A stretch of 64,000 nucleotides of DNA. Origin: an uncultured Flavobacteriales bacterium. GTDB taxonomy: Bacteria; Bacteroidota; Bacteroidia; Flavobacteriales_F; PHOS-HE28. This document shows, in pieces, positions 3,173 through 17,358 of this stretch (position 1 is the first letter of the stretch; every line of letters starts with the position of its first letter). The translations under genes were made by a program, and so were the position numbers. The stretch spans positions 1 to 64,000 of the forward strand of contig CALMPI010000002.1 in NCBI GenBank assembly GCA_937872175.1, written 5' to 3'. The notes below the pieces were generated by a model, which was not told the origin of the DNA, ran no database searches, and saw nothing but the letters and a program-made list of their open reading frames with translations.

Positions 3173-3895
3173 TTACTTCCGTCCGCTCGACGCCTGACCG
3201 GCGGAGCCCTTCAACAGCGGGAACAACAGCTCGTCCGGCTCGTCGGCCACCGTGGATACGCACCGGACCAGTGATCCATCCGGCCGTTGCACCTGTGCGT
3301 TCAGTGCATAGGTGAGCTGACCTTGTGTGGTGAACTGTCCGATGAGGACGAGACCGCTTCCGGCCAGCCCGGCCGTGCCGCCCAGGACCGCCCAGGCGCC
3401 GTTCATGGTGTGGATGCAGCAACCCGGTGCACTGCCCAGGTAGCCCGGCTCCATGTACATGTTCACCACTTGGGGCACGCTGTCCATGGCCACCAAGCCA
3501 TCCGCGGTCCCGTCGGTCGTGTCCAGGTCGCGAGGAACACCCCAATGCCGGTCGCTCGCCGCACCAATGGACAGCCAGGAGTCGTACCCGTCCTCACCTT
3601 CCCGGATGTCCCGATGGTGCATGCGATCGCCGTACTTCACACTGTTGGGCGAATTCACGAAGTGTGTGCTGGTCCGGATGAGCAGCTCGTTCTGCTCATC
3701 CCCGTACACCATGTTCAACCGGTGGCCTTCGGGCAGGTCGATGTACAACCGGTAGGTCACCAGCTCAGGACCGCCGCCCGCATCCGGACGCACCGCGTAC
3801 CGCTCCAGGAGCACCCCCTCCAACGGGTCCTGCGCCGTTGCGCCGGCTGACCACGCCAGCAGTCCGAGGGCGACCGCGCACGGAAGGACGCGCAT
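3173..3895 (-). CDS. Secreted protein, paralog B (minimal form without sorting domain)
   Basis: A 240-residue protein with signal peptide MRVLPCAVALGLLAWSAGA followed by TAQ. It aligns along its length with the N-terminal domain of its neighbours: LEGVLLERYAV at the start, a TYRLYIDLPEGH strand, DSWLSIGAASDRHWGVP in the middle, DGLVAMDS, and LVLIGQFTTQGQLTYALN near the end. It stops about 40 residues after that motif, with no Cys repeats and no recognisable T9SS sorting domain. It is therefore either retained in the periplasm, exported with a partner, or a truncated copy. Only 3 bp separate it from the upstream paralog C, indicating co-transcription. Function unknown. Confidence 0.8.
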   Translation of the reverse strand: MRVLPCAVALGLLAWSAGATAQDPLEGVLLERYAVRPDAGGGPELVTYRLYIDLPEGHRLNMVYGDEQNELLIRTSTHFVNSPNSVKYGDRMHHRDIREGEDGYDSWLSIGAASDRHWGVPRDLDTTDGTADGLVAMDSVPQVVNMYMEPGYLGSAPGCCIHTMNGAWAVLGGTAGLAGSGLVLIGQFTTQGQLTYALNAQVQRPDGSLVRCVSTVADEPDELLFPLLKGSAGQASSGRK

Positions 3896-3898
3896 CGG

Positions 3899-5284
3899 TC
3901 AGCGTTTCACCACACGCCTGACCGTGCGGGCATCACCGTGCACCACTTCGAGGAAGTAGATGCCGCTCGACCGTTCGCTCAGGTCCAGGATGCCGGACCA
4001 CGTGCCGGGGACGACGCCAAGATCACGGGCCACCACGCGCTGACCGAGGGTGTTCTTCAGTTCGATGCGTATCCGGCTTCCCCCGGCCCCGGTGATGCTC
4101 ACGGTGAACCGTTCCAGCACCGGGTTCGGATGCAGGTCGATGATCAGGTCATCAGCGCCCTGTTCCCCGATGCCCACGGTGCCCGAGCAGATGCAGCCCG
4201 TCTGCCAGGTGTCGTTCACCGTGTTGGGGTCTCCGTCATCACAGGGCTGGCCCGGCAATGCAGGGCCTCCAAGGACGCCTTCGCAATCCTCGCCCACGCA
4301 CACGCAGTTCGCGTCGTACACATCGTTCGCGGTGTCCCCATTGCCGTCATCACACGGCGTTCCCGGCAGGGCGCTTCCACCCGGCACACCAGCGCAATCC
4401 ACCTGCTGGCTGGACGAATCGAAGCAAAGCCAGGGGGTGCTGAACTTGTTGTCCGCGTTATACCCTCCGCCCAGCGTATCCGCGGGGATGATGGTGGCAT
4501 AGTACTCCAGGATCTCGTGGCAGTTCGGGTCGTTGCAGACAAGGCTGTCCGGAATGCGCACCCACAGGTTCAGGCAGAACGTCAACGTGCCGTCGGTGGT
4601 GAACTGGCCCAGGAGGATCCGGTTCGAGGCCGTGGGGCCTTCGATGTTCCCGATGTTGCTGCTCCAGGCGAAGTTGTCCGAGCTGTAGCTGCTCCCGTTC
4701 AGGTCGTTGAAGATCGTCGGCGCGGATCCCACCGAAAGGATCCCCGGCGGTGTGCCCGGGATGAGCCCGTCGGCCTGCGTCAGGGGAATGCCGGCCAGTG
4801 GGTCGGTGTTCACCAGCATCGGTGTGCCGGTGCTGCCACCGTCGTTGCTGGTGAGGATGGAGCCGTCGGGGTCCTCGTCCTTCGGCACGCCCCAGTGCGC
4901 ATCGCTCGCCGCGCCGACGGTCAGCCAGCTGTCGATCGCCACCGAGTTCTTGTTGAGGTGGATGTCGTTGATGTCCACCGCCCACGCCTCGCCCCGGTCG
5001 TCGTTGTAGAAGAAGGTCGTAGTCGTGTTGAAGCTGATGTCATGGCCTGGAAAGCCGCCCACGGTGATGAGCTTGTAGCCGGCCTTCAGGTCCGCGAACA
5101 CGCGATACGTGATCTCTCCTTCGTCAAGGTCGCTGCTGCCGTCCGAGTCGGACGCATCGTTCGCATCGGCCACGTAGTAGCGTTCCACCAGGATCCCTTC
5201 CAGACCGGAGGGGTCCGGCGGGGCGTACTGGCCCAGCAGGCCGGTGGCGGTCATGAGCAGCGGGAGGAGGAGTGTGCGATGCAT
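3899..5284 (-). CDS. T9SS-exported secreted protein, paralog C with two Cys-rich repeats
   Basis: A 461-residue protein starting at MHRTLLLPLLMTATGLLGQ, a good signal peptide; the 18 upstream in-frame residues are unlikely to be translated. The family domain spans roughly residues 25-280 (LEGILVERYYVADANDASD, DSWLTVGAASDAHWGVPKDEDPDGS, DPLAGIPLTQADGLIPG, NRILLGQFTTDG). Two copies of the Cys-rich 39-residue-type module follow (DCAGVPGGSALPGTPCDDG and DCEGVLGGPALPGQPCDDG). The last 80 residues are a T9SS type A sorting domain (LHPNPVLERFTV, then GIYFLEVVHGD and RRVVKR). It should therefore be exported across the outer membrane by the T9SS and surface-attached. The biochemical role is unknown. 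Confidence 0.87.
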   Translation of the reverse strand: MHRTLLLPLLMTATGLLGQYAPPDPSGLEGILVERYYVADANDASDSDGSSDLDEGEITYRVFADLKAGYKLITVGGFPGHDISFNTTTTFFYNDDRGEAWAVDINDIHLNKNSVAIDSWLTVGAASDAHWGVPKDEDPDGSILTSNDGGSTGTPMLVNTDPLAGIPLTQADGLIPGTPPGILSVGSAPTIFNDLNGSSYSSDNFAWSSNIGNIEGPTASNRILLGQFTTDGTLTFCLNLWVRIPDSLVCNDPNCHEILEYYATIIPADTLGGGYNADNKFSTPWLCFDSSSQQVDCAGVPGGSALPGTPCDDGNGDTANDVYDANCVCVGEDCEGVLGGPALPGQPCDDGDPNTVNDTWQTGCICSGTVGIGEQGADDLIIDLHPNPVLERFTVSITGAGGSRIRIELKNTLGQRVVARDLGVVPGTWSGILDLSERSSGIYFLEVVHGDARTVRRVVKR

Positions 5285-5364
5285 GGGACGTGGTTCGGGG
5301 GCGAAACTACCGGGGGCACTTTGCGCCCATCGGAGCATTGGGTTACCAGATCGTGACGTGATCC

Positions 5365-6675
5365 TTATTCCCGGATGAGCCGACCTGTGCGGATGGATCC
5401 CGGGCCTTCCAGGCGGATCAGGTACGGACCCGGGGGTAGTTGCGCCACATCGAGGTGGACCTGACCCTGCGGAGCGCCGTCGAGCCGTGCGACCAGCACC
5501 GTGCGCCCGACCCCGTCCAGCACGCGGACCACCCCGGCCGGCGCGCCGTTCCAGTCCACGATGACCACATCGTCACGAACGGGGTTGGGGCGGAATGTCC
5601 ATTCCGATCGGCCCGTGATGGGAGCATCCACCGATACATCGGGGCAGACGAGGGTGATGTCGAGGCCGTTGCAGTTGTCCGGGCCGTAGCAGCACAGCTG
5701 GGCCACCGGGAAATTGGCCGTGGGGTCGAAGTTGCACGCCAGCGTATCCAGGCAGCCGAACACGATGGGCGTGGCACAGGATCCGTCATCGCAGCCGGCC
5801 GTGGGGTCGAACTCCAGGAAGTCCGGGTCGGTGCAGCCGCACACAGGCGGGTACTGGAGCAGCCCGCTCGCCACCTCTCCGGGCTGGAGAAGCGTGTCGG
5901 AACAGACGTACTTGATGATCGTGCCATCGGCACGCTGCACTTCGATGTTCAGGCAGAACGAGAGCTCGCCGGCCGTGGTGAACTGACCGATGAGGATGCG
6001 GTTGTCCGGTGATGGTCCGCGCACACCCGGAGCGATGCAGCTGATGCGCGTGTCCCAAGTGATGAAGGCATTGCCCGCTGTGCTGTCTCGGAACAGGCTG
6101 TCGGGGCTGGTGCCCGTTACCGCGAAGCCGGCTGGCAGTGCAGTGCCCCCGTTCAACGGCACCAGGCCGTCCAGGGAGTCGAGCGGAGCGCCAGCGAGGG
6201 GATCGGCGTTCTGCAGCAGGCCACCGGGGATCATCGCACTACCGCCATCATTGCCGCCCAGGATGCTGCCGTCGGGGTCCCCCTCCTTCAGCACACCGAA
6301 CTTCTGGTTGCTCCCGGCGCCAACGGAGAACCAGGAGTCCAGCGCCACGGTGTTCTCGTCCAACGCGCCATTGTTGATCTCATGTCCGAAGGTCCTTCCA
6401 CGATCGGCATTGTTGAAGAAGTTCGCGGTGGACGAAATGTTCAAGGGGTGTGGGACATCGCCGTAGAGGGCCCGCAGCGCGCAGCTGTCGCACAGGTCCA
6501 CGAACACCCGGTAGGTCCGCGAGCCCGTGGCGAGCCCGCCACCGATGAGGTCCGTGGCGTCGTTCGCATCGGAGATGTAATAGGTCTCCACGATGACGTT
6601 CTCCAGGTCCGCTTGGGCCTGTAGTTGCACAGGGCCTGCCAGGGTGGCCAGCAGCAGAAGGTGGCGTGCGCTCAT
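5365..6675 (-). CDS. T9SS-exported secreted protein, paralog D
   Basis: A 436-residue protein with signal peptide MSARHLLLLATLAGPVQLQAQ. The family domain (LENVIVETYYISDANDATD, DSWFSVGAGSNQKFGV, DPLAGAPLDSLDGLVP, NRILIGQFTTAG) covers about residues 22-260. Instead of the 39-residue repeats of its paralogs it has a different Cys-rich module of the GCxDPxxxxFDPTAxCDDGSC type, which is common in exported Bacteroidota proteins. A T9SS type A sorting domain (FRPNPVRDDVVIVDW, then GPYLIRLEG) ends it. Its ATG overlaps the stop of the TonB-dependent receptor upstream as ATGA, so the two are probably translationally coupled and functionally linked. Confidence 0.87.
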   Translation of the reverse strand: MSARHLLLLATLAGPVQLQAQADLENVIVETYYISDANDATDLIGGGLATGSRTYRVFVDLCDSCALRALYGDVPHPLNISSTANFFNNADRGRTFGHEINNGALDENTVALDSWFSVGAGSNQKFGVLKEGDPDGSILGGNDGGSAMIPGGLLQNADPLAGAPLDSLDGLVPLNGGTALPAGFAVTGTSPDSLFRDSTAGNAFITWDTRISCIAPGVRGPSPDNRILIGQFTTAGELSFCLNIEVQRADGTIIKYVCSDTLLQPGEVASGLLQYPPVCGCTDPDFLEFDPTAGCDDGSCATPIVFGCLDTLACNFDPTANFPVAQLCCYGPDNCNGLDITLVCPDVSVDAPITGRSEWTFRPNPVRDDVVIVDWNGAPAGVVRVLDGVGRTVLVARLDGAPQGQVHLDVAQLPPGPYLIRLEGPGSIRTGRLIRE

Positions 6676-9600
6676 CGGATGGTGTACGATAGGCTCAGTT
6701 GGTATTCGGTACCCCAGCGGTAGCTGTCGAAGTCCGGTCCATGACCTTCTGCGAAGAGGTAGCTGCGGCGCACCGCGGTGTTCAGCAGGTCGCGAACCCT
6801 GAACTGCAGGCCCCAGTGATCACCGAAGCGCTTGCCCAGTGTGATGTCCAGCACGTGCCGCGGCATTTCAAAGGCCCGCACGGCGTCCGGGTCCCCCTCA
6901 TTGTTCGTCACCGCCAGCTTCGGCCCTTGCAGGTTGTAGGAAACGCTCAGGTCCAGCTTCAGGCTGTCCAGCGCATAGGTGAGCATCGAGTTCACGATGT
7001 AGGGTGCCTGCCCGAACATCGGTGTGCTGTACCTCACCTCCTGCCCGGCGATGAACGTGGTGAGGAACGATCGGGATTCCATCCACGTGAGGTTGCCGCG
7101 CAGCTCAAGGGGCCGGAGCAGCTTCACTCGCCCCTCCAGCTCCACGCCCACGACATAGCTGCGATCGGCGTTGCGCCAGGTGATGCCCCCCCCGGAGGTT
7201 TGGAGGAGTTCGATGTGGTCGCGGAAGGTCTTGTAGAAGCCGCTCAGCGACACGTTCGCGCCCCCCTTGAAGAAGTTCTCCACCCGCAGGTCGTAGTTGT
7301 CGATCGAGGTCATCCGGAGGTCGGGGTTGCCGAACACCGGGGCCTGGAACAGGTAGTCGTAGTACTGAACCACGCTGAGCTCGCGGAAACTGGGCCTCCC
7401 CAGCGAACGGAAGTAGGCTGCGCGCAGGTTCATCGGAGCCTGCTCATCCGAACGGAGGCGGTAGATCAGGTTCACGCTGGGCAACAGGTCCCACTGTGCG
7501 ATGGAACCCGGATACGCGGGCTTCGGATCGGGCGTGCCCGCACCGTTGATGGCCAGATCGCCGACGGTCCCGCGGATGCTGTCTTCACGGGCCACGCCGT
7601 CCTTCCAGAAACGGTAGATGTCGCTGACCAGGTCCGTGCTCTCCACACGCAGGCCCCCGGCGATCCGCAATCTCGGGGTGATGCCATAGTCCGTCATCAT
7701 ATAGCCCGCGGTCACGTGGAGGATGCCGATGTCGTTGTCCTTGAACGTGCCGAAGGGAGCGTAGCGTGAGGGGAACCGGCCTTCCTCGTTCATCTCGAAC
7801 CGACCGGGTTCCTCCCACTGGGTGGGGCCCGGTGCGTCGAGCACCACCATGTACTTCTGATCGTTGCGCCGCGTGTTGTACCGGTAGGCGCCGCCGAACT
7901 TGAGCTTGCGGATAAGCGAAGGATCGTCACCGAGCGGGAGTTCGAAGCCGAGCCGTGCGTCGAGCATCCGTTCGTTGAGGAAGCGATAGATCCTGCCGGG
8001 AGGGGTCAAGGCGCCGTCCACGTCCGTAATGGGCTGGCCCGGGGGAGGCAGCACGTACTGGACCGTCAGGAAGTCCAGCATGTCCCGCCGTCCGGTCGAG
8101 TACGAGATGTCGGGGAGAACGGTGAGGTTCAGCGCGGGAATGAGGTGCTTGCCGCTCAGTTGGAAGGCGAACAGCCTGCGCTGTTCCCAGAACTGTTCCT
8201 CCGAGATGAAGGTCTCCCCACTGATGGTGGGGTCCAGAAAGCTGATGTACCGCGCGTTGTTCTGGCCCAGCGTGTTCGCCATGGCCATGAGCGAAATGGT
8301 GTTGTTGCGGTCGGGGGAGAAGGATAGGTTGCCCAGTGCGTTCCAGCCATTGGACACCACACTGATGCGTTGCTCGGCCTTCCGCTTGAACTGATCACCC
8401 GGCTCCTGGTCCTCGTATCGCTCGAAGGTCCGCAGGAAGGTCGAGCTTCCGTCGTACTGGGTCTCCGTGGAGTACCTCAGGCCCACCAGATAGCCCAACT
8501 TCCCGGGGCGTTCACGCTTCCTTCCAATGTCGATCTGGTTGCCCAGGGTGATGCCCAGGTTGTAGTTCGGGTCCCCCGTTCCCTCGCCCACTCGCCATCG
8601 GCTGTTGTCGAACCGTGTGTTGAGCTCCGCCAGCTCGGCGTTCACGGTGGGTGAGAAGTAGCCCAGGTCATACGTGGCGTTGTAGGTGCCGACCGCTTCG
8701 CCGACCGCCGTGGCATCATAGAGCAGCGCGGGCGCCAGGAGGCCCAATTCGGTGAGCGCAAGGTGCTGCAGCGTGTTCCCCGTGGTCATCGAGGTACTGC
8801 CGAAGCCGGGCGTGGATCCAGTGATGCCCAATCCGTTGAGGTATCCCTGGAGGCCCAGAAGGCTCAACTGCTGGTAGATGTTCGGCTCCACGAACCGAGG
8901 GAAGTCCTCCACGTCCTCGGGCACGCCCTCCGGAAGGCCGCGCATGCCGTCATCCCAGCCCAACCGGTCGGTGCTGCTCGAGGCCGAGGTCACGATACCC
9001 GCGAAACTGGAGTTCGGATTGTAGCCCAGGGTGGTCTGTACGTTCACGAAGAACTTCTGCGGATAGTCGCTTGTGTTCATCGAGATGTGTGCGCCGGACC
9101 AGTCACCGGGCAGGTCGGGGGTCGCGGTCTTCGTGATGATGATGTTGTCCATCAGACCGGTGGGGAACAGGTCCAGTCGCAGGTTGTTCGTGAAGGGGTC
9201 CAGCGTCGGTACCCTGCCGCCGTTGATCGAGGTCACCACATACCGGTCCGCGAGACCGCGGACCGTGACGAACGCGCCCACGGTGGACACCCCTGTCACC
9301 CGACGCACGGCCTGCGACGCATCGCCATCCCCGGTGCGGACCATCGCGTCGCGTGAGATGAAGTCGAAGCTCGTCGCGGAATTGATCTTCATGCGGTCCA
9401 GGTACCCGTCCGATCGTTTGCTGGCCTTGTAGGTCACCTCGAACTCCTTGAGCTCCAGCTTGGCCTCGACCATGTCGAAGTCGCGCACCACCACACCCCC
9501 GCCGCCCAGGTCCACGGCCAGTTCGCGGGGGGCATAGCCGAAGAAGGTGCACTCAAGCACCACCGGTCCGGTCAGTTTCAACGGCAGCGAGTAGTTGCCA

Positions 9601-9779
9601 TCGAAGTCCACGGTGGTTCCGATGGGTGGGGTGGACCCCTTCACCATCACCGCGGCACCGATCAGCGGTTCTCCGCTCAGGGCGTCGCTCACCTTTCCGC
9701 GCACGGTGGACTGCGCGAACATGAGCGCGGGCGCGAGCAGCAGAATGATCAGGATCGAAGGCAGGCGCAGCGGTCTCAT
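6672..9779 (-). CDS. TonB-dependent outer-membrane receptor with carboxypeptidase-regulatory-like domain
   Basis: A 1035-residue receptor. The start MRPLRLPSILIILLLAPALMF gives a clean signal peptide; a longer 14-residue extension is unlikely. Residues about 24-110 form the N-terminal CarboxypepD_reg-like beta-sandwich (STVRGKVSDALSGEPLIGAAV). The plug follows (about 140-240: SQAVRRVTGVSTVGAFVTVRGL, then LFPTGLMDNIIITKTATPDLPGDWSG). The rest is a 22-stranded-type barrel ending with alternating aromatic residues. It imports an unidentified substrate using TonB energy. No SusD partner is present; its partners seem to be the secreted paralogs immediately downstream, one of which overlaps it by 4 bp. 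The substrate cannot be read from sequence. Confidence 0.9.
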   Translation of the reverse strand: MRPLRLPSILIILLLAPALMFAQSTVRGKVSDALSGEPLIGAAVMVKGSTPPIGTTVDFDGNYSLPLKLTGPVVLECTFFGYAPRELAVDLGGGGVVVRDFDMVEAKLELKEFEVTYKASKRSDGYLDRMKINSATSFDFISRDAMVRTGDGDASQAVRRVTGVSTVGAFVTVRGLADRYVVTSINGGRVPTLDPFTNNLRLDLFPTGLMDNIIITKTATPDLPGDWSGAHISMNTSDYPQKFFVNVQTTLGYNPNSSFAGIVTSASSSTDRLGWDDGMRGLPEGVPEDVEDFPRFVEPNIYQQLSLLGLQGYLNGLGITGSTPGFGSTSMTTGNTLQHLALTELGLLAPALLYDATAVGEAVGTYNATYDLGYFSPTVNAELAELNTRFDNSRWRVGEGTGDPNYNLGITLGNQIDIGRKRERPGKLGYLVGLRYSTETQYDGSSTFLRTFERYEDQEPGDQFKRKAEQRISVVSNGWNALGNLSFSPDRNNTISLMAMANTLGQNNARYISFLDPTISGETFISEEQFWEQRRLFAFQLSGKHLIPALNLTVLPDISYSTGRRDMLDFLTVQYVLPPPGQPITDVDGALTPPGRIYRFLNERMLDARLGFELPLGDDPSLIRKLKFGGAYRYNTRRNDQKYMVVLDAPGPTQWEEPGRFEMNEEGRFPSRYAPFGTFKDNDIGILHVTAGYMMTDYGITPRLRIAGGLRVESTDLVSDIYRFWKDGVAREDSIRGTVGDLAINGAGTPDPKPAYPGSIAQWDLLPSVNLIYRLRSDEQAPMNLRAAYFRSLGRPSFRELSVVQYYDYLFQAPVFGNPDLRMTSIDNYDLRVENFFKGGANVSLSGFYKTFRDHIELLQTSGGGITWRNADRSYVVGVELEGRVKLLRPLELRGNLTWMESRSFLTTFIAGQEVRYSTPMFGQAPYIVNSMLTYALDSLKLDLSVSYNLQGPKLAVTNNEGDPDAVRAFEMPRHVLDITLGKRFGDHWGLQFRVRDLLNTAVRRSYLFAEGHGPDFDSYRWGTEYQLSLSYTIR

Positions 9780-9988
9780 GCGGTTGGTCCCCGTCCGGGT
9801 CGGCGAAGGTGCAGGGCCCATGTGGGCTGAGCGTTCCGTTGGCGTTAAGCATGATCTATATCCGACCGATGTGGATCATCGTGCACGGGCCCTCGACCAG
9901 CAAGGCCTGGAAGCGTTCATCCCCGGTCGGCGGACATCGGAGGCCTGCGGCCCGGTCACATTCGCGTAACGATCCGGTCGATCGGATC
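9780..9988. other. Intergenic gap, likely promoter region of the receptor operon
   Basis: About 210 bp between the receptor start and the 3' end of the next minus-strand gene. It should hold the promoter of the receptor and secreted-paralog operon. I see no convincing TTG/TAnnTTTG pair, no strong hairpin and no small coding frame in it. Confidence 0.4.
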
Positions 9989-11287
9989 TTACGCTGGAAG
10001 GTGGTTCGTGATGGCATGTGGCAACGCCCCGATCGCCTGCCGGATGCGCTGTGTCTCGAGGCTCAACCGGCACGCGCGCCGCAGGGTGCGGACGAACCGG
10101 TCCATGTGCCGCTCACGCGCCAGTCGTTCCTCCTTGGGGCTCCGGCCGGGATGGATCGCCTGTTCCTTGAACTGGTCGATCACGCGGTCCATCAGCGATC
10201 GCTCACCAAGCATCAGGTCCCAGGCACGGGTCGGCACGCCCTCCAGCCGGACCCGACCGTCGACCTCGATCCAGCCCTCCTCCCGGTCCGCCTTGATGCG
10301 CAGCCGCCAGATGAAGGGCGCACCCGCCTCAGCATGCACGAGCCGCTCGTACACCGGAGCCGGCAACGGCGTGGCGGTCAGTGGCCACCCCTCGATCATG
10401 TCGTGGCCGAGGTGGAGATCGAGCAGTTCCTGACCCAGGCTGCACCAGGCCTCCAGGTCGGGGTGAAGCATGATGCGTACCGGGCCGGGTGCGGCCCCGT
10501 CCGCCTCCGGTCGTCCTTTCCACGAAGGGTCATGCATCGCCGCGTAGGCATAGTGGATGACGTCCGTGCTGGTGATCGTGCGGTCTATGGTGGCTTTCCG
10601 CAGCGGTCTGCGACGAATGCCTTGCGCACGTGCGGCCCGGACCTCCGACAGCGTGGGCGGGATCATCTGGGGGCCTTCGCCGTGGCGGAGCGGAAGGGCA
10701 CCGTACACCTCTTGGAAGCGGTCCACAGCCCAAGCGCTGATGTTGTCCCGGGCCACTCCCCTGGGATCGAACGTATGACGTGGAAGCAGCACCGTGCGCC
10801 GGCCCGGTCCGGCGAATTGTGCGTGGGGCAGGGCGGACGTGGCGAACGCGAAGGGATGGCCGGCGCCGATCTCCGGTGCGAAGACCAGAAAGGTGTTCCC
10901 TGCTCCTCCTTGCGGTCCGATCAGGAACGGCAGGTCGTCCACCGTCGGCTCAGGGATGGCCTGCCGCATCACATAGGTCCTGGCGAACGGCCTCGGAAGG
11001 AATTCGATCAGGTCCTCCTCATCCGACCGTCGTGCGGCGATCGGCACTGGGCGCCCTGTGGTCCCGGGTTTCCTCCGATCCGCCGCCGCCATGCTTCGCA
11101 ACCGCTCGGTGAGCGCGGCGGGGTCGGTGTCCAGTCGGGCGTCATGTGGATCGATGGGCGGCCCGGTGGTGTAGTGCCTGAAGATCGCATGGTCCGATCG
11201 CCCCGCCTGCACCGCCGCAGCGAACAGCGCGAGCTCCTCGCCGGGTTCGCCGGTCCGTCCCGCGCCGTCATTCCGGGTGTGCGACAT
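9989..11287 (-). CDS. Solo protein resembling the type ISP restriction-modification C-terminal specificity domain
   Basis: A 432-residue cytoplasmic protein, start chosen at MSHTRNDGAG; no signal peptide or membrane segment. Several segments match, in order, landmarks I associate with the C-terminal target-recognition region of type ISP restriction enzymes: a PRPFARTYV segment near residue 110 (family YRPFDxRxxY), GGAGNTFLVFAPE, DNISAWAVDRF, HYAYAAMHDPSWKGR near residue 260 (family YIYAVLHSPxYRxxY), RIMLHPDLEAWCSLGQELLDLHL, and RLEGVPTRAWDLMLGERSLMDRVIDQF near residue 370 (family IPxxAWDYxxGxRSALEWIIDQY). No methyltransferase, helicase or nuclease module is fused or adjacent, so it is an orphan domain. 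It could be a domesticated DNA-binding protein, a remnant, or part of a split system. Family assignment is by motif memory only. Confidence 0.7.
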   Translation of the reverse strand: MSHTRNDGAGRTGEPGEELALFAAAVQAGRSDHAIFRHYTTGPPIDPHDARLDTDPAALTERLRSMAAADRRKPGTTGRPVPIAARRSDEEDLIEFLPRPFARTYVMRQAIPEPTVDDLPFLIGPQGGAGNTFLVFAPEIGAGHPFAFATSALPHAQFAGPGRRTVLLPRHTFDPRGVARDNISAWAVDRFQEVYGALPLRHGEGPQMIPPTLSEVRAARAQGIRRRPLRKATIDRTITSTDVIHYAYAAMHDPSWKGRPEADGAAPGPVRIMLHPDLEAWCSLGQELLDLHLGHDMIEGWPLTATPLPAPVYERLVHAEAGAPFIWRLRIKADREEGWIEVDGRVRLEGVPTRAWDLMLGERSLMDRVIDQFKEQAIHPGRSPKEERLARERHMDRFVRTLRRACRLSLETQRIRQAIGALPHAITNHLPA

Positions 11288-11581
11288 CGGGGCAAAGCAC
11301 GAGGGCCCGCGTGAAGCCCGCCCTATCGGAAGGTTAAGCTTCGCTTGCCGCACCGTTACCCGACGACCGCCCAGACCTGGGATCCTGTTGAGCTGTGGGC
11401 GACCACACCGCCACCATCCCACGGACCTATGCCTACCCCGCGGTAAGATCCGTGTGAGCCGAACCGGGGATCGCCACGGGCCCCGCTTCCCGTGATCTCA
11501 CAGAGCGATGACCCAACCATAGATCCGCGGCCACATCCACGCAATGTCCGCGGGGGTGCTTTGCCGCACGATCCAACCCCC

Positions 11582-14500
11582 ATGTACCCGACGATACCCT
11601 TTCACGCTCCGCTGGTCGGTCCGGCGCGGCAACGCCTCTTCCGATGGGGCAGGTTCCATGAACACCTGTGGTGGTTCGCGCTGGCCATCGGTCTCTCCTG
11701 CATCAGCCTCATGGCGCAGGCCCAGATCAGCATCAGCCATCTGAGCACCTACTCCACCGGCAGCTTCGATACAGGCGCTGCGGAGATCGTGGACTTCGAC
11801 CCCGTCAGCGACCGGATCTACTTCGTGAATGCCGGGCTCAATGAGGTCCGCGCCCTGGATGCTTCGAACCCCGCAGCCCTCACACTGGCCTTCACCTTAT
11901 CCATGGCCGCATACGGCGCTGGCGTGAACAGTGTTGTGGTGGTGCCCGGTGGCATCGCAGTGGCCGTGGAGGCCGACCCGAAGACCGATCCGGGCAAGGT
12001 GGTCTTCTTCGATCCCAACGGCGTCTTCCTGTCCCAGGTCACCGTGGGCGCTTTGCCCGACATGGTGACCGTGACACCGAACGGACAGAAGGTGCTCGTG
12101 GCCAACGAGGGTGAACCCGATGATGACTACCTCATCGACCCGCAAGGCTCGGTAAGCATCATCGACATCAGTGGCGGGATCGCATCCGTGACCGCCGCGA
12201 ACGTGACCACGATCGAATTCACCGGGTACACGCCCGCCATGCTGCCTGGCGTGCGGATCTTCGGACCCGGTGCAACGGTGGCGCAGGACATGGAGCCGGA
12301 GTACATCGCTGTGAGCGATGATTCGCAGAAGGCCTTCGTTGCCTGTCAGGAGAACAACGCGGTGGTGCGCATCGACCTGACGACGAACACGATCGAGCAG
12401 ATCGCCGCGTTGGGCAGCAAGGACAACAGCCTACCCGGCAACGGCTTCGACGCCAGCAACAGTGACGGCGGCATCAACATTTCCACGTGGCCGGTGCGCA
12501 GCTTCTACATGCCCGATGCGATCCACGCCTTCACCATCGCTGGGCAGACCTACGTGGCCTACGCCAACGAGGGCGATGTGCGCGAGTACGATGGATACGA
12601 GGAAGTGAAGCGCGTGTCGAGCGGTTCCGTGGTGCTCGACCCCACCATCTTCCCGAATGCCGCCACACTGAAGCAGAACGCCAACCTTGGGCGCCTGAAC
12701 ATCACCATCGCCCAAGGCGATGCCGACAACGACAATGACCTGGACACCATCTTCACCTTCGGCACGCGCAGTTTCAGCATCCGCGATGTGAACGGTGCGT
12801 TGGTCTACGACAGCGGCGATGACTTCGAACAGATCACCGCGACGCAGCTTCCATCGGAATTCAACAGCAACAACGACGAGAACGGAACCTTCGATGCACG
12901 CAGCGATGATAAAGGACCCGAGCCGGAGGCCGTGACCGTGGGCGTGGTGAACGGTGTACCCTACGCGTTCATCGGTCTGGAGCGCATCGGAGGGATCATG
13001 GTATACGACGTGAGCGATCCCGCGGCTCCCGTCTTCGTGCAATACCTCAACAACCGCGACTTCGCTGGCGATGCGGAGCTTGGCACCGCCGGTGACCTGG
13101 GCCCCGAGTGCATCGTGTTCGTGAGTGCTGCCGACAGTCCCAATGGCACACCGCTGCTTGTGGTGGGCAATGAGGTGAGCGGCACGGTGAGCATCTTCCA
13201 AGTGGCGCCCACCGCGTTCGAGCTGCAGATCCTGCACGCTTCCGACTTCGAGGGCGCCGTACCCGCCACGGAGGACGCCCCGCGTTTTGCCGCCATCGTG
13301 GACAGCCTGGAGCACACCTACGCGAACTCGGTCACGCTGAGCAGCGGCGACAACTTCCTGCCCGGTCCCTTCATGAGCGCGGGTGAGGATCCCACGCTGG
13401 TGGCGCCGCTGAAGGCCGCCTATGAGAACTACTACGGTGGTCCCTTCGCGAACAACGACCTGCGCGCGGGCATCGGCCGGGTGGACATCACGATCATGAA
13501 CATCCTGGGGATCCAGGCCGCTGCGCTGGGCAACCACGAGTTCGATCTGGGCACCAGCGAGCTGCGCAATATCATCGCCGGTCAGAACAGCGGGACCAAC
13601 ATCCGCTGGTCCGGCGCCCAGTTCCCCTACCTCAGCAGCAACCTCGACTTCAGCGCCGATGCCAACCTGAGCAACCTCTTCACGAACACCCGCGAGGAGC
13701 ACACCTTCTTCCAGAGCAACCCGGCGCAGACCGCCTCGGCGATCGCGGCCACCAAGAAGCTTGCTCCCAGCACGATCATCACGGTGAACGGCGAGCGCAT
13801 CGGTGTGGTGGGTGCCACCACCCAGATCCTCGCGAGCATCTCCTCGCCCGGGGCCACCACCATCATCGGTCCCGACGCGGATGACATGCCTGCGCTGGCC
13901 GCTATCCTGCAGCCGGTGGTCGACTCCCTCCGCATGGCGGAAGGGATCGACAAGATCATCCTGTTGAGCCACCTCCAGCAGCTCACCTTGGAGAAGGCGC
14001 TCGCGCCGCTGCTGAACGGTGTGGACGTGATCATCGCCGGTGGTTCGCACACCCTGATGGCCGACGCCACCGATCGCCTGCGCGCCGGTGATGTGGCCGC
14101 CGAGACCTACCCTTTCCTCACGGCCGGCCTCGATGGCAAGCCCATCGCCATCGTGAACACCACCAGCGAGTACAAGTACGTCGGCCGCCTCGTGGTGGAC
14201 TTCGACGCCAACGGTGACATCGTCCCGGCCAGCATCGACCCCGCCATCAGCGGCGCCTATCCGGCCGACAGCCTGGGCGTGGTGGAGGTGTGGGGCGACT
14301 ACGCCGATGCCTTCACGCCCGGCAGCAAGGGCCAGGAGGTACAGAACCTCTGTGGCGCGATCGCGGCGGTGATCGTGGCGAAGGACGGCAACCTCTTCGG
14401 GCGCATCGATGTGTTCCTGGAAGGCCGCCGCACCTTCGTCCGCACCGAGGAGACGAACATGGGCAACCTCAGCGCCGATGCCAACAAGTGGATGGCCCGC

Positions 14501-16489
14501 CGCTACGATCCCGCCGTCACCATCAGCATCAAGAACGGTGGGGGCATCCGCAGCGCGATCGGCTATGTGAACGCCGTGGGTGGCAACGTGAACCTGGAGC
14601 CGCCTCAGGCCAACCCGCTCGCGGGCAAGCAGCAGGGCGACATCAGCCAGCTCGACATTGAGAACTCGCTGCGCTTCAACAACCAGCTGAGCACGCTCAC
14701 CCTGACCGCCGCCGACCTGCGCACCATCCTGGAGCACGGTGTGGCCGCCAGCGGTCCCGGCCAGACCCAGGGTCGCTTCCCGCAGGTGAGCGGTGTCCGC
14801 TTCAGCTACGATGAGACCCTGCCGGCGAACGCCCGCATCCTGAACGCGGTGGTGACGGACAGCGCTGGCATCACGGTGGATACGCTGGTGATGAACGGCC
14901 TCGTCCACGGCGACCCTGCCCGCACCTTCCGGGTGGTGACCCTGAACTTCCTGGCCGGAGGTGGTGATGGCTATCCGTTCAATACGCTCGGCACCGGCCG
15001 CGTGGATCTGAACACCCTGCCCGACGCGGGTCCGGGTGTGGCGAGCTTCACCAATGCCGGCAGCGAGCAGGATGCCTTCGCCGAGTACATGAAGAGCTTC
15101 CACAGCACGTCGGCCTACGCGCTGGCCGAAACGCCCGACAGCCTGGACACGCGCATCGAAGAGGTCAACGACCGCGAGGATGACATCCTGGGTGGTCCGG
15201 TGGCCTGCCTGCTGAACGAAGTGGAGCTGACGATGACCACGGATGCCAGCGCCGACCAGCTCAGCTGGAACATCGTGATCGGCAACACGCAGACCGTGGT
15301 GTGCAGTGGCAGCGGTCTTCCCGCCAGCACCACCTTCACGGCGACCTGCTGCCTGGCCGATGGCTGCTACGACCTGCAGGTCCTTGACAGCTTCGGGGAT
15401 GGCATCGCCGGTGGCGGTTTCGTGCTCCGCGACGCCAACGGCGAACGGATCATCGACAACAGCAACAACGGCGGTTCATTCACCTCCCTGAGCAAGGCAC
15501 CGCTCGGGTTCTGCCTGCCCCTTGGCAGCGACCGGCTCACCGCCGCCAGCTGCGATCTGCTGGCCATCGCGCCCACCGGGGCCATCTCCGCCGAGGTCAA
15601 CCCCGCGGTGAGCGCCCAGTACAACGTGACGAACACCACCAGCGGCTACCAGTTCTGGATCCGCAACCCGCATGGCGGCTACAACCGCCGGGTGTTCCTG
15701 GCGCACAACACCGGCAACGGCCCGGCAGGTGCCACGCGTTGCGCCACGCTGAAGCTGAGCGCGCTCACCACCCTGCCCGTACCGGCGAACGTCCTGCTGA
15801 ACGTGCAGGTACGCTCGCGCGTGGCGGGTGTGTATGCCGAGTTCGGTCCGGCCTGCCAGTTGAAGGTGGCCGTGCCCGCATGCAGCACGACCAAGCTCGT
15901 GGACACCCCGGGCAGTTCCATCTTCTCCTGCGGTGTGGTGAAGCCATTCGGCACCAATGCCCAGATCAGCGCCTTCCCGGTGACCGGGGCCACCACCTAC
16001 CAGTTCCGCTTCGAGCGCGTGGGCGGAGGCTTCGCCCGGCAGATCGCGTCCACCACCAACAACCTCACGCTGAAGTGGAACACCCTGCCCCTCGTGAATG
16101 GGGACACCTACAACGTGACGGTGCGCGTGAGCGTGGATGGCGGTGCCACCTACTGTCCGTTCGGTGACGTGTGCACGGTGACGATCGACAACACGCCGGG
16201 CCAGGTGCAGCGCAGTGTGGACGCGGATGTCGTCGCCGAGAACGTGACCCTTTATCCGAACCCGGTGCGGAATGGCCTCGGCAACGTGCGCTTCGAGGGC
16301 ATGGATGCGTTCGACGGCACGATCGTGCTGGAAGTGATGGACCTGACCGGCCGTCGCGTACTGGCCGAACAGGCGTCCTTCACCCCGTCCATGCGGGTCG
16401 ACCTCTCCGGTCAGCCCGATGGCGTGTATCTGATGACGCTCACCGTGGGTGAGCAGCAATGGACCCGGCGACTGGTGGTACAGCGCTGA
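11582..16489 (+). CDS. Giant secreted choice-of-anchor I / 5'-nucleotidase-family protein with T9SS sorting domain
   Basis: A 1635-residue protein starting at MYPTIPFHAP; the hydrophobic signal core lies at about residues 30-48, ending LMAQAQ. Residues about 50-540 are a choice-of-anchor I beta-propeller-like domain (for example GQKVLVANEGEPDDDY). A UshA-type metallophosphatase follows from about 548 (LQILHASDFEG, SSGDNFLPG, ALGNHEFDLG, LSHLQQ, IIAGGSHT), then the 5'-nucleotidase C-terminal substrate domain (about 920-1150; NMGNLSADA, ISIKNGGGIRSAI). Several Ig/fibronectin-like stretches and a T9SS type A domain (LYPNPVRNGLGNVRF, then GVYLMTLTVGEQQW) end it. It probably releases phosphate from nucleotides or related esters at the cell surface. 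The usual N-terminal DxH metal motif reads DFE, so activity needs testing. A terminator hairpin lies 31 bp downstream. Confidence 0.9.
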   Translation: MYPTIPFHAPLVGPARQRLFRWGRFHEHLWWFALAIGLSCISLMAQAQISISHLSTYSTGSFDTGAAEIVDFDPVSDRIYFVNAGLNEVRALDASNPAALTLAFTLSMAAYGAGVNSVVVVPGGIAVAVEADPKTDPGKVVFFDPNGVFLSQVTVGALPDMVTVTPNGQKVLVANEGEPDDDYLIDPQGSVSIIDISGGIASVTAANVTTIEFTGYTPAMLPGVRIFGPGATVAQDMEPEYIAVSDDSQKAFVACQENNAVVRIDLTTNTIEQIAALGSKDNSLPGNGFDASNSDGGINISTWPVRSFYMPDAIHAFTIAGQTYVAYANEGDVREYDGYEEVKRVSSGSVVLDPTIFPNAATLKQNANLGRLNITIAQGDADNDNDLDTIFTFGTRSFSIRDVNGALVYDSGDDFEQITATQLPSEFNSNNDENGTFDARSDDKGPEPEAVTVGVVNGVPYAFIGLERIGGIMVYDVSDPAAPVFVQYLNNRDFAGDAELGTAGDLGPECIVFVSAADSPNGTPLLVVGNEVSGTVSIFQVAPTAFELQILHASDFEGAVPATEDAPRFAAIVDSLEHTYANSVTLSSGDNFLPGPFMSAGEDPTLVAPLKAAYENYYGGPFANNDLRAGIGRVDITIMNILGIQAAALGNHEFDLGTSELRNIIAGQNSGTNIRWSGAQFPYLSSNLDFSADANLSNLFTNTREEHTFFQSNPAQTASAIAATKKLAPSTIITVNGERIGVVGATTQILASISSPGATTIIGPDADDMPALAAILQPVVDSLRMAEGIDKIILLSHLQQLTLEKALAPLLNGVDVIIAGGSHTLMADATDRLRAGDVAAETYPFLTAGLDGKPIAIVNTTSEYKYVGRLVVDFDANGDIVPASIDPAISGAYPADSLGVVEVWGDYADAFTPGSKGQEVQNLCGAIAAVIVAKDGNLFGRIDVFLEGRRTFVRTEETNMGNLSADANKWMARRYDPAVTISIKNGGGIRSAIGYVNAVGGNVNLEPPQANPLAGKQQGDISQLDIENSLRFNNQLSTLTLTAADLRTILEHGVAASGPGQTQGRFPQVSGVRFSYDETLPANARILNAVVTDSAGITVDTLVMNGLVHGDPARTFRVVTLNFLAGGGDGYPFNTLGTGRVDLNTLPDAGPGVASFTNAGSEQDAFAEYMKSFHSTSAYALAETPDSLDTRIEEVNDREDDILGGPVACLLNEVELTMTTDASADQLSWNIVIGNTQTVVCSGSGLPASTTFTATCCLADGCYDLQVLDSFGDGIAGGGFVLRDANGERIIDNSNNGGSFTSLSKAPLGFCLPLGSDRLTAASCDLLAIAPTGAISAEVNPAVSAQYNVTNTTSGYQFWIRNPHGGYNRRVFLAHNTGNGPAGATRCATLKLSALTTLPVPANVLLNVQVRSRVAGVYAEFGPACQLKVAVPACSTTKLVDTPGSSIFSCGVVKPFGTNAQISAFPVTGATTYQFRFERVGGGFARQIASTTNNLTLKWNTLPLVNGDTYNVTVRVSVDGGATYCPFGDVCTVTIDNTPGQVQRSVDADVVAENVTLYPNPVRNGLGNVRFEGMDAFDGTIVLEVMDLTGRRVLAEQASFTPSMRVDLSGQPDGVYLMTLTVGEQQWTRRLVVQR

Positions 16490-16520
16490 GGACCGGGGAG
16501 CGATCCCCAGGAACGAGGGA

Positions 16521-16546
16521 AGGGGCCGTCCGCTAGGGCGGCCCCT
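16521..16546 (+). terminator. Hairpin terminator after the nucleotidase-family gene
   Basis: Perfect 8-bp GC-rich stem aggggccg / cggcccct with a 10-nt loop, followed by a short T stretch. It lies 31 bp after the stop codon on the same strand. Confidence 0.7.
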
Positions 16547-16656
16547 TTGCGTTCATGGGGATCACGATCGCTTCACATCGTGTTCATCCAGCCTTCGCAC
16601 ACGTCCGGTCACTTCCTTCTAGGTTGCGCCACACTTCCAGCAACTCCGCGCTCCCC

Positions 16657-17358
16657 ATGAAGTTCCGCCTTCTTCCCCTCGCGCTCATCGCCACCACGGC
16701 CTACGCCCAACCCACCACCGACATCGGGCTGTTCGCCGGCACCGCGGCGAACACCTTGGAAGTGCGCGTAAGACCGAACGCTTCGTTCACGGAGGTGATG
16801 AGCTCGCTCACCTTCACCATCCGCTGGGAGTCCACCTCCGGGGCCACCATCGCGGGACCGTCCACGCTGAGCATCGGACAGAACTGCCCGGGCGGCTTCT
16901 TCGTGACACCCAGCGGCGATAGCACGGTCACCAATGGAGGTTTCAACTACTACACCTTCAATGCGTTCGGATTCGCCCAGTTGAGCGCCGCCTGCCCGGG
17001 GCAGACCTGGACCGCGAATACTGAGCGCGTCATTGCCACCATCCCCATCCGTCCCGGCGTCGCCTGCGCCAACTTCCGCATCGTGAACGATGCGTACACC
17101 ACCGCCAACAACAAGGACTTCTTCATTTCCCTGAACGGTCTTCCCCGCACGGGCACCATCTACAGTGCGGCGGCGGTGAAAGCCGTGCGCGGTGACCTGA
17201 ACCGGGACGGCCAGGTGAACATCACCGACTTCGGCCTCTTCGTGAACGCGTTCGGTGCACCATGCACCGGTTGTGCGGCCGATCTGAACTTCGACAATAC
17301 GGTGAACGTGTCGGACTTCGGGCTGTTCGTGAACGTGTTCGGCATCGTCTGCCCCTGA
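16657..17358 (+). CDS. Secreted protein with two C-terminal dockerin-like EF-hand repeats
   Basis: A 233-residue protein; start chosen at MKFRLLPLALIATTAYAQ, a compact signal peptide. The N-terminal part (about 25-170) is a beta-rich domain reminiscent of cohesin or adhesin folds (LEVRVRPNASFTEVMSSLTFTIRWE), with Cys pairs. The C-terminal 55 residues hold two EF-hand-like units, DLNRDGQVNITDFGLFVNAF and DLNFDNTVNVSDFGLFVNVF, separated by a CTGC turn and closed by a terminal Cys. This matches the end of the beta-helix protein at 1391-2938. No T9SS type A domain is present. Likely a calcium-binding exported protein; function unknown. Confidence 0.82.
   Translation: MKFRLLPLALIATTAYAQPTTDIGLFAGTAANTLEVRVRPNASFTEVMSSLTFTIRWESTSGATIAGPSTLSIGQNCPGGFFVTPSGDSTVTNGGFNYYTFNAFGFAQLSAACPGQTWTANTERVIATIPIRPGVACANFRIVNDAYTTANNKDFFISLNGLPRTGTIYSAAAVKAVRGDLNRDGQVNITDFGLFVNAFGAPCTGCAADLNFDNTVNVSDFGLFVNVFGIVCP

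Follow-up and report, generated by a model that had tools for sequence, protein, structure and literature searches.

The window analysed here, a stretch of 64,000 nucleotides from an uncultured Flavobacteriales bacterium (genome G000), encodes what resembles the target-recognition domain (TRD) of a restriction-modification enzyme, present as a separate gene. The locus raises the question whether such a domain can be kept by its host as a separate protein and, if so, for what use. The TRDs of type IIG/IIL and type ISP enzymes, which readily switch specificity, are under study as DNA readers open to engineering; each works as one half of a clamp, the methyltransferase being the other half. A natural lone TRD under selection would reveal what such a domain needs for working without its enzyme, and would document the reuse of a restriction-modification part by a host. 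No report of a stand-alone, selected TRD was found in the open-access literature, a search outside which most subscription papers lie. The presence of a selected stand-alone TRD at this locus is well supported, and from its conserved and altered parts we infer a likely biochemical role.

Identity and predicted structure of the protein

The gene was assigned to the minus strand, a strand that the initial description left unstated, with its ATG at 11287 and a TAA stop codon at 9989-9991, and encodes 432 amino acids.

9989..11287, minus strand: stand-alone type IIG/IIL (Pfam Type_ISP_C) target-recognition-domain gene, from the open reading frame, Pfam, PDB sequence search and AlphaFold

A plus-strand open reading frame over the same bases (9809-11314), though larger, was rejected as an antisense shadow because substitutions relative to the orthologue in genome G025 are concentrated in the third positions of the minus-strand codons (0.22, 0.17 and 0.50 differences at the three codon positions in turn between G000 and G025).

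Family searches were carried out with the 432-residue protein. PF18135 (Type_ISP_C) was the sole Pfam match, at 85.7 bits (E 4.4e-24) against a curated cut-off of 25.9 bits; the G000 genome carries no second PF18135 copy. PADLOC models of type IIG restriction-methyltransferases matched at E 2.7e-18, and the NCBIfam search returned no match. Among PDB sequences the protein matched DrdV (7lo5, E 1.3e-19), which was also the best relative of a profile built from the three orthologues described below (E 2.9e-49).

An AlphaFold model obtained with 44 aligned sequences, two plasmid-derived rows being left out, reached a pLDDT of 82.8 and a pTM of 0.83; the pLDDT was 37 when only three sequences were used. 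In structure comparison, the best match of this predicted model was to DrdV residues 622-1029 (347 residues, Z 31.6); LlaBIII followed at Z 28.0 and LlaGI at Z 26.7. The next-best row had Z 3.0 and none other was above Z 3. These scores indicate that the domain is complete and that the similarity is far above chance. Since the DrdV match extends over model residues 1 to 425, the protein is a complete target-recognition domain and little else. The original prediction of a 432-residue, type-ISP-like target-recognition protein is thus confirmed by Pfam (4e-24) and by structural matches that include the type ISP C-terminal domain, with DrdV as the best of them.

The C-terminal TRD of DrdV (type IIG/IIL; PDB 7lo5/7lvv) shares its fold with the whole protein and is the closest sequence relative in the PDB. 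The protein differs from DrdV in having neither nuclease nor gamma-class N6 methyltransferase, in the absence of the jaw and back helices, and in the presence of an insert of about 38 residues. The C-terminal specificity domain of LlaGI and LlaBIII belongs to the same Pfam family and has the same fold. These type ISP enzymes, however, carry a nuclease, a helicase-like SF2 ATPase, a coupler and a methyltransferase in one chain, all absent here, and the protein falls in another clade of the TRD tree. No methyltransferase, nuclease or helicase was seen in the protein or in the genes adjoining it. The claim that no methyltransferase, ATPase or nuclease is fused or adjacent therefore holds: the 432 residues are TRD only, and the neighbours are a TonB receptor and surface proteins.

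Orthologues, locus and descent

Two further stand-alone copies were found among 45 genomes of the genus, both in Flavobacteriales MAGs: G025 (68-69% identity) and G005 (32%). In all three species the TRD gene immediately precedes the same TonB receptor gene and is on the side of it that faces groEL.

6672..9821, minus strand: TonB-dependent receptor gene, directly downstream of the TRD gene in all three carriers
11328..11339, minus strand: conserved 12-mer GCTTAACCTTCC upstream of the TRD gene in all three carriers
11292..11300, minus strand: conserved 5' element GTGCTTTGC, its start 39 nt from that of GCTTAACCTTCC in each of the three carriers
9961..9980, minus strand: 20-nt block CGACCGGATCGTTACGCGAA just 3' of the stop codon, identical in G025 and not found in G005

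The 12-mer and then the 5' element precede the gene at identical spacing in 3/3 carriers, and the 12-mer is absent elsewhere in the 176 loci compared. Relative to G025, the TRD gene has a dN/dS of 0.21 along its length, a ratio that is approximate because dS is near 1; the neighbouring genes gave 0.16 (TonB receptor) and 0.15-0.25 (surface proteins). The shared locus, the 5' element and the dN/dS together identify the copies as orthologues under constraint and not as fragments. That the gene is kept intact by purifying selection in three species is well supported. Being intact, selected and at the same chromosomal place in all three, it has probably gained a new use. With the G025 and G005 orthologues intact at the same locus, the original prediction stands on both counts, as the fold matches and the homologues are conserved as stand-alone genes.

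A scan of the genome_contigs set with the protein alone gave no match, and with the alignment it returned only the G025 and G005 loci. No relative was present in 50,697 phage records or in one viral-contig scan. Plasmid matches listed were at 19-29% identity and are annotated as restriction enzymes, methylases or helicases; the two inspected, H2 and H9, are fused enzymes. Recent horizontal gain from a phage or plasmid was rejected, as phage and viral-contig matches were absent and the plasmid matches distant.

A tree built from 46 TRDs groups the three stand-alone proteins in one long-stemmed clade (100/99). This clade is nested among DrdV-kind type IIG enzymes of about 1030 residues (98/92; inner 99/97), apart from the helicase-bearing type ISP enzymes. 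By this tree, the protein descends from DrdV-like single-chain type IIG/IIL enzymes and not from helicase-bearing type ISP enzymes. Of the initial description as a type ISP specificity domain, the specificity domain is retained and the type ISP origin is replaced by a place in the DrdV-like type IIG/IIL clade. On a TopA tree, all three carriers fall inside one seven-species clade (99/98), within which they are not monophyletic (AU p 2.4e-5). Some species of this clade must therefore have lost the gene, and a single origin followed by later loss explains the distribution. The TonB orthologue is absent from 4/4 non-carriers of this clade, two of these genomes being 69-84% complete.

Downstream of the TonB receptor, and encoded on the same strand as it and the TRD gene, are tandem secreted surface proteins. 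In the window, positions 3173-6675 hold three of them, with mutual identities of 28-43%, one showing a weak match to a T9SS sorting tail. Upstream of the TRD gene, on the opposite strand, is a choice-of-anchor I / 5'-nucleotidase protein of 1665 residues with a T9SS tail; together with a dockerin-type protein it occupies 11492-17358, between the TRD gene and groEL. Both genes are absent from the corresponding place in G025. The CGACCGGATCGTTACGCGAA block has stayed identical in G025 while the remaining intergenic DNA has diverged, and may be a terminator or binding site. Condensin-like genes, among them one for an MksE-family protein (tested in L047), are present in the groEL-TonB interval or the groEL flank of many relatives; these loci are L043, L045, L047, L048, L050, L170, L171, L173 and L175. 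No condensin-like genes were seen in this interval or flank of the three carriers. A Wadjet-type defence neighbour in the relatives was considered on the basis of the MksE-family condensin match (7.4e-25) and set aside; JetC matches were only weak, and no defence island is therefore claimed.

Lost and gained parts of the domain

The alignment was used to locate parts of the TRD in the stand-alone protein, with loop definitions and the name of the C-terminal subdomain taken from LlaGI (PMC4872093).

10931..10954, minus strand: position of recognition Loop V, region kept (residues 112-119)
10802..10828, minus strand: position of recognition Loop VI, region kept, with G-P-G/G-S-G (residues 154-162)
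10580..10696, minus strand: insert of about 38 residues with VRAARAQG(I/L)(R/K)R, common to the three stand-alone proteins (residues 198-236)
10463..10522, minus strand: place of the lost back helix YRxKYxxNLKRxFPRIPF (residues 256-275)
10016..10438, minus strand: C-terminal 'guide' subdomain, approximate, kept (residues ~284-424)

Loop VI reads G-P-G or G-S-G in all three stand-alone proteins, and the hairpin region, like those of Loops V and VI, is kept. The conserved T-x-R-D of Loop IV is lost from the stand-alone protein. An I-K-W segment is lost in all three; placed by its position in the alignment, it appears to be jaw helix H (LlaGI 1286-1294), the jaw being the element that in LlaGI closes the clamp formed with the methyltransferase (PMC4872093). 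The helix YR..(K/R)Y...L(K/R)...PR(I/V/L)P, or a close variant of it, is present in 43/43 fused or split relatives and in 0/3 stand-alone proteins. It maps by alignment to the second of the two helices of LlaGI 1395-1428, which are packed on the central sheet (PMC4872093). Of the recognition-region landmarks first noticed in the protein, Loop V, Loop VI and the C-terminal part thus persist, and the Loop IV T-x-R-D, helix H and the YRxKYxxNLKRxFPRIPF helix do not.

The interval holding the insert measures 50-51 residues in the stand-alone proteins versus 11-13 in fused type IIG relatives. Its motif, VRAARAQG(I/L)(R/K)R, is the most conserved new feature of the stand-alone proteins. The insert, which may take the place of the lost back helix, is modelled with low confidence by AlphaFold. 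The net charge of the 432-residue protein is +2.

Proposed role of the lone domain

On the observed identity, stand-alone state, orthology, constraint, losses and gains, the best remaining reading, with about an even chance of being correct, is that the protein is a domesticated, non-catalytic DNA reader, for which we infer DNA binding, site specificity and a regulatory role. In this account, whose evolutionary part is well supported, a DrdV-like type IIG/IIL TRD became a separate gene once, in an ancestor of the seven-species clade, beside the TonB-receptor/surface-protein locus, where purifying selection has held it. The core fold, the Loop V and VI positions and the backbone-guiding C-terminal part have been retained and the basic insert gained. 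The protein would most likely occupy short DNA sites and so alter transcription or the access of other proteins to DNA. In a narrower version, possible but rather doubtful, it would be a free-standing protein, inherited vertically, that acts much like a transcription factor with a DrdV/LlaGI TRD fold and regulates host genes sequence-specifically, for instance those of the adjacent TonB-receptor/surface-protein locus. CTTAAC upstream of the TonB gene was tried as a binding site and rejected, the surrounding promoter-like block being present in non-carriers also; as CTTAAC itself occurs in the non-carrier G062, no target site at the TonB locus is supported.

Base flipping and methylation are impossible for a protein that has no methyltransferase, and with the jaw helix lost the known clamp with the methyltransferase cannot close. 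Three of the six recognition loops of LlaGI come from the methyltransferase (PMC4872093), and in MmeI the methyltransferase makes the minor-groove contacts (PMC4833311). A lone TRD may therefore bind weakly, and its affinity and specificity are uncertain. The loss of the Loop IV motif and helix H, the net charge of +2 and the small number of known orthologues (three) also count against the DNA-reader reading.

The same losses and the nearly neutral charge could be attributed to reuse of the retained fold outside DNA reading, for example in protein binding through the basic insert, whose conserved motif is the chief novelty of the protein and is not a recognition loop. Such a role is nevertheless unlikely, as the protein still has the backbone-guiding part and the regions of Loop V, Loop VI and the hairpin, with the Loop VI glycine motif in 3/3 proteins.

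Alternatively, the protein could act in trans as a specificity subunit, docking on a methyltransferase encoded elsewhere and directing or altering its specificity. Four PF02384 N6_Mtase genes in the G000 genome are candidates for such a partner, although they are known by family match and all sit on other contigs. Solitary hsdS genes, frequent among type I systems (lactococcal plasmids carry 77; PMC6458302), offer a parallel, HsdS being likewise a specificity protein encoded alone. HsdS, however, normally has its own gene, whereas the TRD here derives from a domain that nearly all relatives carry in fused form, and its separation is fixed and old. A genuine split type ISP system does exist in G379, where the TRD is also a separate open reading frame. 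There, the nuclease-helicase-methyltransferase frame is nearby and the TRD keeps the jaw and back helix motifs of fused relatives; the stand-alone TRD has neither, which makes a trans specificity role less likely. Moreover, when the nuclease-methyltransferase portion of the type IIG enzyme from G060 was used as query, nothing was found in G025 at E <= 1, the best E in G000 was 0.47, and G005 gave a 62-residue remnant. A trans-acting subunit is thus improbable, and the suggestion that the protein is half of a split system is disfavoured, as the search of the genome yielded no type IIG nuclease/methyltransferase relative and the motifs kept by the G379 split are lost here. The G379 locus (L177:202-6853; G379:C5) comprises a frame of 1263 residues for the enzyme, one of 485 residues for the TRD and, between them, a 337-residue gene. 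This gene resembles RhuM.

A further reading is an anti-restriction protein that masks sites from an enzyme of the same family, or a defence component; in its favour, full-length type IIG relatives occur elsewhere in the genus. Vertical inheritance at a chromosomal locus beside surface-protein genes, and the failure to find relatives in the phage records and the viral-contig scan or a cognate enzyme in its own genome, make such a role very doubtful. Lastly, decay of such genes does occur in the genus (a 62-residue match in G005, a 73-residue open frame in G025), but the reading of the TRD gene as the decaying remainder of what was once a type IIG enzyme gene is close to refuted by about 430 intact codons in three species, the dN/dS of 0.21, the conserved 5' element, the shared insert and the synteny.

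The short type IIG/ISP gene remnants in the two carrier species, at G005:C54:50807-50992 and G025:C47:6526-6675, represent real decay, and one of the two is 90% identical to the G060 enzyme.
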